Of a stretch of 64,000 bases of DNA, positions 37,386-43,592 are shown in pieces. A program made the translations under genes and the position numbers. Within the stretch, counting starts at the first letter, position 1, and every line of letters starts with the position of its first letter. The DNA is from Actinomyces sp. Marseille-P3109 (GTDB lineage Bacteria; Actinomycetota; Actinomycetes; Actinomycetales; Actinomycetaceae), in contig NZ_OOHN01000008.1 of assembly GCF_900323545.1 (NCBI RefSeq), positions 1,107,144 through 1,171,143 of the forward strand, read 5' to 3'. The notes beneath the pieces are model-generated. The model ran no database searches, was not told the DNA's origin, and was given only the letters and a program-made list of their open reading frames with translations.

Positions 37386-38261
37386 TCAGTGAACCTCGAA
37401 ACCATAGGAACGGAAGATGGCGCGCGTGGACTCCACAAGCTCCGGCTCCGGAGGCCTGGTGTCACGCAGCTGGTACTTCAGTCCCAGAGCATCCCATTTG
37501 TCGGTGCCCATCTGGTGGAAGGGCAGGACCTCAACACGGCTGACCGAGCCCCAGCGCTCAATGATGCGGGCCACGTTGTGGACGTTCTCGGGGTCGTCAG
37601 TGAGGTCCGGGACCAGGACGAACCGGGCCCAGATCTCGATTCCCTTGGCCGCCAGCCGGTCACCGAAGGTGATCGTCGGGGCGAGGGAGCGTCCCGTCAC
37701 CTTCTTGTAGGTCTCCTCATCACCGCTCTTGACGTCGAGGAGCACCAGGTCGATGTTGTCGAGCATCTCATCGCTGGCATTGGCTCCCAGGAACCCCGAG
37801 GTGTCGATGCACGTGTGGATCCCCATCTTCTTCGCACCGGCCAGGAGCTTGCCCGCGAAGGCCGGCTGCATGAGAACCTCGCCGCCTGACAGCGTGATAC
37901 CGCCCTTGGACGCACGGAACACCCCCCGGTAGCGGCGCATACGACGGAGAAGCTCCGAGGCCTCAACCGGCTCGCCGTCCTTCATGAGGAAGGTATCGGG
38001 GTTGTGGCAGTACAGACACCGCAGGGGGCATCCGTTGAGGAAGACGGTCATCCGGGTACCGGGACCATCCACCGCGGTGACGAGCTCCCAGGAGTGGATC
38101 GAGCCCAACTCACCGGCCCGCATCCGGGCCAGGCGCTCAGAGCGCTGAAGATCCGTCAGCTCCTCGAGCCCGCCGATACCCGCCCCGCGCAAACGGGCGG
38201 CCGGGGCCAGGAAGTCCTGGTCCCGACCGCCGTCGCGCACGGTCGTCGTGGTCTGCGTCAT
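37386..38261 (-). CDS. pflA: Pyruvate formate-lyase activating enzyme
   Basis: 291 residues, radical SAM. The cluster motif C78-x3-C82-x2-C85 lies in NGCPLRCLYCHNPD, and GGITLSGGEVLMQP is the SAM-binding GGE region. PflA abstracts a hydrogen from the glycine of the RVSGYAV motif to make the glycyl radical. Here that motif is on the separate small protein encoded just upstream, so the activase must act on it rather than on PflB. An N-terminal extension of about 50 residues is longer than in E. coli. It is 23 bases after grcA. Confidence 0.95.
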   Translation of the reverse strand: MTQTTTTVRDGGRDQDFLAPAARLRGAGIGGLEELTDLQRSERLARMRAGELGSIHSWELVTAVDGPGTRMTVFLNGCPLRCLYCHNPDTFLMKDGEPVEASELLRRMRRYRGVFRASKGGITLSGGEVLMQPAFAGKLLAGAKKMGIHTCIDTSGFLGANASDEMLDNIDLVLLDVKSGDEETYKKVTGRSLAPTITFGDRLAAKGIEIWARFVLVPDLTDDPENVHNVARIIERWGSVSRVEVLPFHQMGTDKWDALGLKYQLRDTRPPEPELVESTRAIFRSYGFEVH

Positions 38262-38284: not shown

Positions 38285-38530
38285 TCAGGCCTGGGAGTGG
38301 AAGGTGCGGTGGAGCACGTCAAGCTGCTGCTCGCGAGTCAGCTTGACGAAGTTGACGGCGTAGCCGGAGACGCGGACCGTGAGGTTCGGGTAGTTCTCCG
38401 GGTGCTCCATCGCGTCCTCGAGGGTGTTGCGGTCCAGGACGTTGATGTTGGCGTGGTACAGGCCCTTGACGCCGCCGTTGTCCTGACGCTGCGCCTTCAT
38501 GGAGGCGAGGCGCTCTTCATACGTGGCCAT
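38285..38530 (-). CDS. grcA: Separate glycyl-radical domain protein (GrcA/YfiD-like)
   Basis: 81 residues. After a 22-residue basic helical head the protein is simply the last 60 residues of a pyruvate formate-lyase: [19 protein letters not shown], then RVSGYAV with the radical glycine at Gly56, then [16 protein letters not shown]. In E. coli the homologue YfiD is a spare part that rescues oxygen-cleaved PflB. Here the neighbouring PflB lacks this domain, so the small protein should be required, not spare. It has its own ribosome site (AAAGGGG) and lies 77 bases after the pflB stop and 23 before pflA. Confidence 0.93.
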
Positions 38531-38607
38531 GGTGGCCCCTTTCTGAGGTGATGTTATCGATGTGTGAGAGGTTGCTGCGGTGTGATCAGCCGGGGAAGCC
38601 GGCTGGA

Positions 38608-40722
38608 TCAGATCTCGGCGCAGTCGTCGGGAACGAATCCGGCGTCGAGGATGCCCACGAGGTTGGCGACGCGCTCATCGAGCGTACGGCCCAGACCCTG
38701 CGGGGTGATCGTGTTGGTCAGCGAGATGCCGTCCAGGGCGTCGTTGTAGTCGAGCTTGCCAACGCTGAGCATCGAGGCGACCATGCCGTGGGTGTCCATC
38801 CCGTTCTCCGGGTTGGCGCCGGGCGAGAAGGGGGTGCCCTTCTGGTGACCCGAGGGGAAGGAGCCCGTGGCCTTGCCGTAGACGACGTTGGAGGTGATCG
38901 TCAGCACCGACTGGGTCGGGATGGCGTCCCGGTAGAAGGGCTGAGCCTTGATCTTCGACATGATCGTGTGGACCACGGTGGCTGCGATGTCGTCGGCGCG
39001 GTCATCGTCGTTGCCGTAGATCGGGAAGTCGCCCTCGGTGACATAGTCGACCACCAGGCCGGTCTCATCACGCACCGGGGTGACCTTGGCGTACTTGATG
39101 GCAGCCAGGGAGTCGGCCACGATCGACAGGCCGGCGATGCCGCAGCCCATGGTGCGCACGATGTCGGAGTCGTGCAGCGCCATCTCGATGGACTCGTAGG
39201 CGTAACGGTCATGGCAGTAGTGGATGATGTTGAGGGCCTCGACGTAGGTGGCCACCACCCAGTCCAGCATCTTCTCGTACTTGTCCCACACCTCGTCGAA
39301 GTCGAGGGGGCCGTCGCCCTCGATACCGGGCAGACCGGAGACGACCTGCTTGCCGGTCATCTCGTCGCGACCGCCGTTGATGGCGTAGAGCAGGGCCTTG
39401 GCGGAGTTGACGCGGGCGCCGAAGAACTGCATCTGCTTACCCACGCGCATCGGGGACACGCAGCAGGCGATCGCGGCGTCGTCGCCCCAGTGGTCACGGA
39501 TCTGCTCGTCGGCCTCGTACTGGATGGAGGAGGTCGTGATCGAGATCAGGGCGCAGAAGTCCTTGTAGCCCTGCGGCAGGTTCTCGTCCCAGAAGATCGT
39601 GATGTTCGGCTCCGGGGCGGGACCGAGGTTGCGCAGGGTCTGCAGCAGACGGAAGGAGGTCTTGGTGACCAGGGAGCGACCGTCCTCGCCGAAGCCGGCG
39701 TCGGACCAGGTGGCCCAGTAGGGGTCACCGGAGAAGATCTGGTCGTAGTCGATGGTGCGCAGGAAGCGCGTGATGCGCAGCTTCATGACGATGTTGTCGA
39801 TGAGCTCCTGGGCTCGGCTCTCATCGATGACGCCGTTGCGCAGGTCCCTCTCGAAGTAGATGTCCAGGAAGCCGGAGAGACGGCCGATGCTCATGGCGGC
39901 ACCGTCCTGGGACTTCACGGAGGCCAGGTAGGCGAAGTAGGTCCACTGGACCGCCTCGTGGGCGTTCTTGGCCGGGCCGGAGATGTCGTAGCCGTAGGAG
40001 GCGGCCATGACCTTGAGCTTCTTGAGGGCCTTGATCTGCTCGGAGTGCTCCTCGCGGTAGCGGGCCCAGTGCTCGGAGAAGGGTTTGTCCGCCACGGCGT
40101 CCTTGGCCCTCTGCTTCTCCTCAATGAGGAAGTCGGCACCGTAGAGCGCCACCCGGCGGTAGTCGCCGATGATGCGACCGCGGCCGTAGGCGTCGGGCAG
40201 ACCGGTGATGATGTGGCTGGAGCGCGCCGCACGGATGCGCGGGGTGTAGATGTCGAAGACCGCGTCGTTGTGGGTCTTGCGGTAGCGGGTGAAGATCTTC
40301 TTGACCTCGGGGTCGACCTCCTTGCCCGCCTCCTTGATCGCGGTCTCCACCATGCGCCAGCCACCGTTGGGCATCATGGCGCGACGCAGCGGGGAATCCG
40401 TCTGCAGGCCAACGATGACGTCGTCGTCCTCGCTGATGTAGCCGGCAGGGAAGGCGTCGATGTCAGCGGGAGTGTGGGTGTCGACGTCAAGGATGCGGAC
40501 CTTGCGCTCCTCGGAGAGGTAGTCCTTCTCCAGGGTGTCCCACAGGCGCAGGGTCTTGTCCGTGGCGCCCGCGAGGAACGAGGCGTCACCCTCGTAGGGG
40601 GTGTAGTTACGCTGGATGAAGTCGCGGACGTCAATGTCCTCGGTCCACGGTCCGGTAACGAAGCCCTCCCAGGCGTCATTGCCGCTCACCGTGGTGGCAG
40701 ATGTTGTGACCTCAGTGGTCAT
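38608..40722 (-). CDS. pflB: Pyruvate formate-lyase core lacking the glycyl-radical domain
   Basis: 704 residues against about 760 for a complete enzyme. It converts pyruvate and CoA to acetyl-CoA and formate. The active-site pair Cys420-Cys421 ([11 protein letters not shown]) matches E. coli Cys418-Cys419, and the substrate-site and barrel segments are well conserved ([40 protein letters not shown]). The protein stops at [16 protein letters not shown], just before the point where the HLNVNV...RVSGYAV radical domain should begin; that domain is the next gene. GAGGAGGG precedes the ATG. A stop, a 77-base gap and a new ribosome site argue against a sequencing frameshift. Confidence 0.95.
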
Positions 40723-41107: not shown

Positions 41108-43156
41108 CTACTCGGCCCCAAGGTCCCGGACCGCCACGACGCCGTCAGCGGCGGTAGCCGCCGTCCTGGCAATGTCGGCCGCCAGCATGCCGAAGTCCTC
41201 CAGCAGCTCGGCCCGGGAGGCGGTGTCGATGAACTGACGCGGGATGCCGATGCGACGGAAGACCGGGGAGCCTGCCTCACCGGGACGGGAGGCCTGGTGG
41301 TCCTCCACAGCATCGCGCAGCTGGGACCCGATGCCTCCGTCAACCAGTCCGTCCTCGATCACGACGACGACGTCGGCCTCGGCTGCGGCCCGGACAAGAG
41401 GATCGGGAGCCGGGATGACCCAGTGCGGGTGCACCACCGCGACGGTGCGGCCCTCCTGCTGAAGGGTCCGTCCGGCCTCGCAGGCCTGAGCCGCCATGGC
41501 GCCCACGCCCACCAGGAGGATATGAGGCGCGCCCACCGTGCCCCGACTCTCGAGCAGCACGTCGACGACGTCGAAGGCATCCGCCTCCCCCGTCTCCCCA
41601 CTCTCCTCGTCCTGCAGGCCCTGGTCATCAACCACCTGCTCGAGGCGGCGCACCACCGGCAGCGGGTCGGGCAGAGTTCCCTTGGGGTAGCGCACCACCG
41701 TGGGGGCGTCGTCGGTGGTCACGGCCTGACGCAGGCTCTCACGCAGCGTCGCCTCGTCCCGGGGAGCCGCCAGGCGCAGGCCCGGGACGTGAGCCAGCAG
41801 CGCCATGTCCCACATGCCGTTGTGGCTGGCCCCGTCCGTGCCGGTGATCCCGGCTCGATCCAGGACTACCGTCACTCCTGCGCGGTGGAGAGCGACATCC
41901 ATGAGGACCTGGTCGAAAGCGCGGTTGAGGAAGGTGGCGTAGAGGGCCACCACGGGGTGCATCCCGGAGAACGCCAGCCCGGCGGAGAAGGTGAGCGCGT
42001 GCTGCTCGGCGATGCCGACGTCGATGACCCGCTCCGGCATGGCGTCGGCCAAGGGCTGGAGACCCACGGGAGCCTGCATCGCAGCGGTGACCCCGACGAT
42101 CCGCTCGTCGCCGCGCGCCAGCGACACGATCTCCTCGGCGAAGACGGAGGTCCACCCGAAGCGCTCGGCCACGACCGGCAGCCCGGTCTCGGGATGGATC
42201 TGGCCCACGGCGTGGAAGCGGTCTGGAACGTGCTCCTCGGCGGGGGTGTATCCGCGCCCCTTCTCGGTGATGACGTGGACGATGACCGGTTCGGCGTACT
42301 CGCGGGCCCGGGTGAGGGCGAACTCGATGGCGGTGATGTCGTGGCCGTCGACGGGTCCGGTGTACTTGATTCCCAGGTCCTCGAAGAAGGCCGAGGGGAC
42401 GAGGACGTCCTTGAGTCCCCGCTTGAGGCCGTGCAGGGCGTCGAAGGCCGCCCGGCCGGGCGCCCCCTGGGACAGGAGCGTGCGCTTGACCCCGGTCAGG
42501 ACGCGCTCGTAGCCGGGATTCGTGCGCAGCGCGTCGAGGTGGTGGGCCAGTCCCCCGATGGTGGGGGCGTAGGAGCGTCCGTTGTCGTTGACGACGATGA
42601 CCAGGTGCCGGTCTGAGGAGTCGGCGATGTTGTCCAGGGCCTCCCAGGCCATGCCGCCGGTCATGGCGCCGTCACCGATGACGGCGACCACGTGGCGCTC
42701 GTCGTGGCCCTGGAGGTGGTTGGCTCGGGCGATGCCGTCCGCCCAGGACAGCGAGGTGGAGGCGTGGGAGTTCTCCACGACGTCGTGAACGGACTCGGCC
42801 CGCGACGGGTAACCGGACAGCCCTCCGCGCTCGCGCAGGTGGGTGAAGTCCTGCCGGCCGGTGAGCAGCTTGTGGACGTAGGCCTGGTGACCGGTGTCGA
42901 AGACGATGGTGTCCCGCGGCGAGCGGAAGGTGCGGTGCAGGGCGATCGTCAGCTCCACGACACCGAGGTTGGGACCCAGGTGGCCGCCGGTGCGCGCCAC
43001 CGAGGCGACGAGGTGGCGACGGATCTCGGCCGCGAGCGCCACCAGCTCGTCGCTGGTGAGGCGGTTGAGGTCGGCGGGCTTCCTCACTGAGGAAAGAAGC
43101 GCTCGGCTGCCCTTGCCCTGCTTGGCGGGCCGACCAGTGTGCTCAGCTGCTGGCAC
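41108..43156 (-). CDS. dxs: 1-deoxy-D-xylulose-5-phosphate synthase
   Basis: 682 residues. It condenses pyruvate and glyceraldehyde 3-phosphate, the first step of the MEP isoprenoid route. Motifs include HLGPNLGVVELTIALH, the thiamine diphosphate motif VIGDGAMTGGMAWEALDN, and the C-terminal transketolase domain (DRAGITGTDGASHNG, then VGVGAMAAQACEA). An acidic insert of about 25 residues (around DDQGLQDEESGETGEADA) precedes the last domain. The GTG at 43156 was chosen for the strong AAGGAGG 7 bases upstream; in-frame ATGs further upstream extend into non-conserved sequence. Confidence 0.96.
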   Translation of the reverse strand: MPAAEHTGRPAKQGKGSRALLSSVRKPADLNRLTSDELVALAAEIRRHLVASVARTGGHLGPNLGVVELTIALHRTFRSPRDTIVFDTGHQAYVHKLLTGRQDFTHLRERGGLSGYPSRAESVHDVVENSHASTSLSWADGIARANHLQGHDERHVVAVIGDGAMTGGMAWEALDNIADSSDRHLVIVVNDNGRSYAPTIGGLAHHLDALRTNPGYERVLTGVKRTLLSQGAPGRAAFDALHGLKRGLKDVLVPSAFFEDLGIKYTGPVDGHDITAIEFALTRAREYAEPVIVHVITEKGRGYTPAEEHVPDRFHAVGQIHPETGLPVVAERFGWTSVFAEEIVSLARGDERIVGVTAAMQAPVGLQPLADAMPERVIDVGIAEQHALTFSAGLAFSGMHPVVALYATFLNRAFDQVLMDVALHRAGVTVVLDRAGITGTDGASHNGMWDMALLAHVPGLRLAAPRDEATLRESLRQAVTTDDAPTVVRYPKGTLPDPLPVVRRLEQVVDDQGLQDEESGETGEADAFDVVDVLLESRGTVGAPHILLVGVGAMAAQACEAGRTLQQEGRTVAVVHPHWVIPAPDPLVRAAAEADVVVVIEDGLVDGGIGSQLRDAVEDHQASRPGEAGSPVFRRIGIPRQFIDTASRAELLEDFGMLAADIARTAATAADGVVAVRDLGAE

Positions 43157-43592
43157 GGTGCGCCTCCTTGTCGAAGGTGATGTCGAGTGTGGTGAGGTGT
43201 CGTTCATGCGGTGGTGCGTCGTCGGCCACCGAGCTGGTGGAGCGGATGAGAGGATGCGGAGGCACCCGGGAAAGGGTAGCCGGTGGGCACGCAATGATGT
43301 TTCTGCGGTGGTGGTACTCCTCCTGACGTCACCGCTTCGGTGGCGGTATCACAGCCTGTCTCCGTGCCGATCGCCGAGCCGGTCTCGATGCCGGTCTCGA
43401 TGCCGGTCTCATGCTGGCCTTCAGCATAGGGCGGTCCTGGCCGCCGTACAGTCACGTGTCACGCGGGTCACGGATAAGCACGTACTGTATGCCTTGACCG
43501 TCGGAACCCTTCGCGCCGGCCGGTCCGTGGCGTCGTCGCACCTGACCGCCCGACCGCCCGACCGCCCTCAGGACAGCCTTCCAGGAGGAACC
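43157..43592. other. Intergenic region between divergent dxs and S9 peptidase genes
   Basis: 436 bases with no supported gene. It holds a 12-bp tandem repeat (43378-43411). Promoters for both genes are expected here; TACTGT in the right half is a possible -10 for the peptidase gene, without a clear -35. Confidence 0.5.
43378..43411. repeat. 12-bp tandem repeat upstream of dxs
   Basis: GCCGGTCTCGAT occurs at 43378 and 43390, with a partial third copy at 43402. The short period invites copy-number variation between strains. Confidence 0.85.

Follow-up and report, generated by a model that had tools for sequence, protein, structure and literature searches.

The closest described counterpart of the locus analysed here is the pair formed in E. 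coli by pyruvate formate-lyase (PFL; PflB) and YfiD/GrcA (TIGR04365), in which a separate small protein likewise supplies the radical loop, using the same domain and the same type of activase. E. coli PflB has its own radical domain, and YfiD acts after that domain has been cleaved at Gly734; in the locus described below the core never has the domain (PMC8683613). A nearer structural parallel is an engineered E. coli truncation, tPFL (residues 1–695, residues 696–759 removed), which is cut at nearly the same residue as the natural core and, together with YfiD or truncYfiD, is fully active once activated, tPFL with YfiD reaching wild-type activity (PMC8683613). However, binding of YfiD to tPFL is undetectable and activation is 32-fold lower than for cPFL:YfiD; YfiD binding requires both PFL residues 696–733 and YfiD residues 1–60 (PMC8683613). 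The natural pair, by comparison, has a conserved leader and a core of its own. Two PDB entries listed as 'Formate acetyltransferase', 38la and 38lb, contain PFL chains (687 and 739 residues) in which the radical domain is unmatched; they are possibly related prior work on truncated PFL, and for both the score to a clostridial PFL exceeds that to the core described here. A naturally split PFL was not found in the literature at title and abstract level, a coverage that leaves out most subscription journals. In databases, the small gene already carries the name GrcA2 in Actinomyces, Trueperella, Actinotignum and others; as a whole word, 'GrcA2' is absent from the literature searched.

The window is a stretch of 64,000 nt from Actinomyces sp. 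Marseille-P3109, and all features described here lie on its minus strand. The pflB core, a PFL without the glycyl-radical loop, occupies 38611..40722 (704 aa, with Cys420-Cys421) and ends at a TGA at 38608–38610. After a 77-nt spacer (38531..38607) that carries the ribosome site AAAGGGG comes grcA2 (38285..38530 with its stop; coding 38288–38530), which encodes a separate 81-aa glycyl-radical protein with Gly56 in RVSGYAV. The gene for the PFL-activating radical SAM enzyme, pflA (37386..38261, 291 aa; 301.9 bits to TIGR02493, cut-off 231.75), starts 23 nt past grcA2, giving the gene order pflB - grcA2 - pflA. Coordinates, lengths, spacer, stop codon, ribosome site and gene order, as well as the positions of the cysteine pair and the glycine, were all described correctly in an earlier note made from the sequence. 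Immediately upstream, also on the minus strand, lies a gene (41108–43294) that resembles DXP synthase (dxs), judged by eye from its translation.

The core belongs to the PFL family by score, at 997.7 bits to TIGR01255 against a curated cut-off of 994.2, but the match covers only profile positions 1–681 of 744: the glycyl-radical domain expected on the same chain sits on a separate one. PF02901 matches the core, and the Pfam Gly_radical domain PF01228 is shared out between the two proteins, with positions 1–65 on the core and 65–106 on the small protein. The adjacent catalytic pair Cys420-Cys421 is invariant in 25 aligned core rows, as is RVSGYAV in 22 aligned GrcA2 rows. Core residues 16–696 align with residues 9–693 of E. 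coli PFL, the core ending eight residues past E. coli Phe693, and GrcA2 residues 18–78 align with E. coli residues 696–756; Gly56 therefore corresponds to E. coli Gly734. In the topology of the E. coli enzyme, strand beta-10 leads into the radical loop, and the cut falls immediately ahead of this strand (PMC8683613). The earlier note had the core stopping exactly before the radical domain and the small gene encoding only that domain. Both statements need correction, since the core ends inside the Pfam domain, at the strand preceding the radical loop, and the small gene also encodes a conserved leader of 20 residues that had been missed. The small protein is a member of NF008341, 'GrcA2' (166.2 bits, cut-off 145), and falls below the cut-off of the YfiD/GrcA family TIGR04365 (84.6 bits against 170, profile positions 59–124 of 126 only). 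A model of the GrcA2 radical domain superposes on E. coli PFL (1cm5) at 1.2 Å over 47 columns. The predicted structure of the core had a mean pLDDT of 47.3 and was left out of any fold search.

We sampled 151 genomes of the family, of which 129 had a TIGR01255 match at 1e-100, one match each. Ninety-seven of these genomes have only the split form, 32 have only the fused form and none has both; the match ends at profile positions 676–702 in the 97 split genomes and 742–744 in the 32 fused ones. When the loci of all 97 split genomes were read, the window's own included, a separate radical-domain ORF was found directly downstream on the same strand in every case, although the core of L180, from a draft genome, is interrupted and the small gene of L181 is truncated where its contig ends. 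About a dozen small-gene matches lie in apparent open frames of 764–858 aa; these were rejected as fused genes, as a real stop follows the core in 20 of 20 loci read. No free small PF01228 gene was found in the 32 fused genomes, 27 of which have a single PF01228 match, the other five having a second match inside a frame of 723–790 aa. By genus code, the split form occurs in 23 genera and the fused form in 11; g21 and g33 hold both, in different species. Within the window's own genus, the split form was found in 12 of 12 genomes sampled. We conclude that the split is a conserved, family-wide trait of PFL, an aspect that the earlier note had also overlooked. A Varibaculum genome is described in PMC4177395 as giving no evidence of PFL.

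The leader comprises GrcA2 residues 3–22 (38465..38524, minus strand, 20 residues) and is proposed to be a docking helix. Its length is identical in 98 of 98 small proteins, a set made up of 96 from the family (L181 is outside this set and outside the selection test) together with L190 and L191. Counted from the GLYHAN strand, Thr/Ser at −20, Tyr/Phe at −19 and Arg at −16 are present in 98 of 98, Met at −12 and Arg at −8 in 97 each, and Lys at −11 in 90. The spacing of Arg, Met and Arg by four would put them on the same face of a helix, and AlphaFold2 places a helix at GrcA2 residues 4–17 with low confidence (block pLDDT 57 and 52). Pooled dN/dS over 49 close pairs was 0.195 for the leader and 0.042 for the radical domain; thus, the leader is under purifying selection and is less constrained than the radical domain. 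No leader-like segment was found in the fused PFL tails compared (L004–L033 and L057–L083). The YfiD model matches GrcA2 from residue 14 onward only, and where YfiD has a disordered tail of 60 residues, GrcA2 has its 20-residue leader of different sequence (PMC8683613).

The very weak binding and activation of YfiD by tPFL mean that an enzyme cut here is not guaranteed to work, and because the ends of the natural core and of tPFL lie only a few residues apart, something must replace the lost recognition element. The leader is the sole added and conserved feature that we found, and we therefore propose it as the docking element. On this sequence evidence, the leader probably holds GrcA2 on the core in place of a covalent link.

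In a profile search of the whole genome that contains the window (3.15 Mb, 99.98% complete), PF02901 matched once and PF01228 in two pieces, each of them within the locus described here, and there was no second PFL. The genome encodes pyruvate dehydrogenase E1 and cytochrome bd subunit I, and POR_N, a domain of pyruvate:ferredoxin oxidoreductase, had no match in it. This gene content looks like that of a facultative organism in which PFL would be the route recognised for making acetyl-CoA from pyruvate without oxygen.

We conclude, with a probability of about 0.86, that pflB and grcA2 encode one PFL made of two chains, a reading taken from gene content and alignment. We infer the following assembly. 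The core would bind pyruvate and CoA and hold the catalytic cysteine pair, and GrcA2 would insert the barrel strand that the core lacks, together with the glycyl-radical loop and the C-terminal helix, docked by its leader as a substitute for the covalent link. PflA would then install the radical on Gly56 of GrcA2, from which a thiyl radical would form on the core, and oxygen cleavage at Gly56 could be repaired by swapping the small chain. Since GrcA2 would be supplying the radical to a domain-less core, it would be an obligate subunit and not a spare part. The earlier note had likewise proposed an obligate two-part PFL, and the genomes support this well: there is no second PFL, the stop and the separate gene are kept in 97 of 97 split loci, and both forms occur together in 0 of 129 genomes. 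Two of the outcomes that it had named as counting against it were looked for: a second full-length PFL in the genome is absent, and a mis-sequenced stop is excluded by the conservation of the stop and of the separate gene.

Actinomyces and its relatives include many oral, skin and urogenital bacteria. If the two-chain reading is true, what serves E. coli as an emergency repair scheme is the normal state of the enzyme in these organisms. They would thereby offer a natural experiment on what lets a separate radical domain find a PFL core and be activated on it, and a working split could help to build PFL pathways that recover after exposure to air.

Why the enzyme is split is a separate question. 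By analogy with the E. coli YfiD work, the small subunit may be replaceable after oxygen damage: a chain cut at Gly56 would become two small pieces without a covalent hold, and these could be exchanged for a fresh chain of 81 aa. This rationale is plausible, and we put the odds that the split brings an oxygen benefit at about even. The earlier note had gone further and suggested life at shifting oxygen levels, for which the gene content of split relatives gives no more reason than that of fused ones. An association of the split with an aerobic gene set was looked for among the 97 split and 32 fused family genomes and was not found: cytochrome bd subunit I is present in 97/97 and 32/32, respectively, and pyruvate dehydrogenase E1 in 94/97 and 32/32. 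Since split and fused genomes have the same aerobic markers, nothing in their gene content points to a particular oxygen niche.

These equal markers fit an alternative that concerns only the cause of the split and is compatible with the two-chain reading, namely that the two-chain enzyme is real but arose without any oxygen benefit, by neutral fission, which a duplication of the radical domain may have preceded, and was then locked in and spread by inheritance and transfer. The trait also tracks the gene tree, the 99 split rows forming one clade in the first tree, and Silvimonas terrae, with a full PFL, a leaderless radical-domain gene and pflA, has an arrangement of the expected intermediate type. 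Against neutral fission, the leader is kept by selection, although this indicates a need and not a reason, and a replaceable radical chain would spare the 704-aa core after an oxygen hit, as has been argued for YfiD (PMC8683613). We regard neutral fission as a serious contender that falls somewhat short of an even chance. A more specific proposal is that GrcA2 is an exchangeable radical cartridge: the leader would have taken over the docking role of E. coli residues 696–733, oxygen-cleaved cartridges would drop off and be replaced while the core is reused, and the system would have arisen from a tandem spare part and been re-fused at least once, in Cellulomonas citrea and possibly in the Bifidobacteriaceae. 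We offer this proposal tentatively, and in its full form we think it rather more likely to be wrong than right.

When Bifidobacteriaceae are left out, the tree unites all 99 split cores in a single clade with an SH-aLRT of 100. Their nearest fused relatives are the PFLs of Bifidobacteriaceae and Cellulomonas citrea, with a common strand (10 protein letters, not shown); these are single chains with a short junction and no leader. The other sampled fused PFLs, including those of the same family, lie beyond a branch of 1.15 changes per column. Depending on sampling, the Bifidobacteriaceae fall outside the split rows in one tree (82/205 rows) and inside them in another (51/205 rows), whereas C. 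citrea falls inside in both. An AU test did not reject monophyly of the split form (p 0.352). Two histories stand, one fission followed by re-fusion and one fission with fused sisters, and the fused PFL of C. citrea (L207:1437-3695) is possibly a natural re-fusion in which the leader was lost. Two genera of the family contain both split- and fused-PFL species (loci L142 of G021 and L170 of G099); the split gene of G021 clusters with those of a different genus, suggesting that it was replaced through gene transfer or that a stray contig is present in a draft genome.

In the alignment, 41 core positions distinguish the split form from most fused PFLs (L180, L192, L193, L197, L200, L001–L002, L004–L033, L054–L083 and sequences of <600 aa were left out). 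The split residue occupies 303 of 369 cells at these positions in the nine Bifidobacteriaceae and C. citrea rows, whereas across the remaining 89 fused rows it occupies 138 of 3649 cells. Because the nearest fused rows carry the split residues, most of the 41 positions mark the clade and not the split, and we rejected them as split-specific residues of the core. We likewise rejected a split-specialised activase, as an extended PflA N-terminus occurs beside split and fused PFLs alike in the loci inspected and gave no signal.

Silvimonas terrae (L212:1344-4849) has the same gene order as the split loci: pflB, here of full length and with an extended linker, is followed by a glycyl-radical gene of 61 aa that lacks the leader, and then by pflA. 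Its PflB (782 aa) keeps its own radical domain, in contrast to the split cores, and its small protein, at 121 bits, is under the GrcA2 cut-off. This arrangement possibly illustrates an intermediate, although the S. terrae PFL lies at a distance from the split clade.

We considered three further readings. According to the first, GrcA2 is a spare part of the YfiD type and the normal radical comes from some other protein. The NCBIfam name, 'autonomous glycyl radical cofactor GrcA2', says as much, and GrcA2 aligns with YfiD across the radical domain. However, a PFL that includes the radical domain is absent from the window's genome and from the split family genomes, 0 of 97 of which have a further TIGR01255 match at 1e-100, so that the small protein does not coexist with a full-length enzyme that it could mend. 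The window's genome was found to encode one more glycyl-radical enzyme, NrdD, which is of a different family and is matched over its full length (positions 2–562 of 562). We therefore consider the spare-part reading very unlikely. The small protein belongs to NF008341 by score, yet the name implies a spare part in genomes without an intact PFL; such naming can mislead both ways, with cores labelled as complete enzymes and the essential subunit labelled as a spare part. Moreover, 28 of the 97 split family cores fall under the TIGR01255 cut-off of 994.2 bits, and automatic annotation may therefore label the same enzyme differently between species.

The second reading, that readthrough of the stop or frameshifting yields a full-length PFL from the two frames, draws on the 26 of 97 loci in which core and small gene are in frame, nine of which have no further in-frame stop in the spacer. 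Against this, the frames differ in the other 71 loci (relative frames 0/1/2 = 26/42/29), all three stop codons are in use (TGA 58, TAA 31, TAG 8; for both counts, L180 was entered with the values of its interruption), and the spacer varies from 4 to 227 nt (median 63; 96 family loci, L180 excluded). In addition, a Shine-Dalgarno-like site precedes 94 of 97 small genes, as compared with 428 of 2989 control ATG triplets inside the same cores (14%); in this test, start codons were set by rule and up to five in-frame starts were tried per small gene. Conservation, frames and stop codons together rule out sequencing error or recoding, and we give readthrough hardly any credence.

The third reading, that the core is devoid of PFL activity and has a radical-free function instead, has in its favour the missing domain and nothing more, and is scarcely credible given the invariant catalytic cysteines in 25 rows, the pflA-type motif that comes next on the same strand in 92 of the 97 split stretches, and formate secretion by Actinomyces naeslundii (PMC6493303). 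Depending on which of four media was used, this species released 0.56–2.53 µg formate per 10^6 cells within 20 h, exceeding the other two species of the study (Streptococcus sobrinus, 0.09–0.47; Lactobacillus rhamnosus, 0.001), although the authors rated formate as low relative to lactate and acetate (PMC6493303); its link to the split form is through its genus, in which 12 of 12 sampled genomes have that form. The main text of a transposon study of Schaalia odontolytica makes no mention of pfl, formate or glycyl (PMC12369343).

Split PFL genes also occur outside the family. Of 394 genomes sampled across the class, 45 match the GrcA2 model and three exceed its cut-off: the window's own, G526 and G231, the latter two being L190 and L191, which were already among the loci examined above. 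PFL is present in 6 of 79 genomes of the G231 family (three split, three fused) and in 15 of 251 genomes of the G526 family (nine split, six fused). The small gene with its leader was found in 12 of 12 split genomes of these two families and, within the fetched stretch, in none of the nine fused genomes.

Among the best 80 loci from named genomes, a fused PFL is lacking and the small gene stands free in 11: Actinomyces gaoshouyii, a Trueperella, seven Corynebacterium, Brachybacterium squillarum and Dermabacter hominis. A domain-less core lies beside the small gene in nine of these 11; in one the core is interrupted, and in one it is unrecognised on a contig piece. The rest of the best 80 comprise 65 fused loci, three cut by a contig end, and Silvimonas terrae, with a fused PFL and a free small gene. 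L192 and L193 were dropped, as the PFL core is absent from the fetched stretch. At least three of the 11 named loci duplicate records of other samples (L196 = L046, L197 = L180 and L201 = L295, by identical 400-base centres), and counts from the different samples must therefore not be summed.

Finally, glycyl-radical proteins other than PFL also occur in the family. One genome of the window's genus encodes a separate, longer glycyl-radical protein (G149:C39:18874-19188, in an 899-aa frame) that is not a PFL by TIGR01255, and further long Gly_radical frames were found in other family members.
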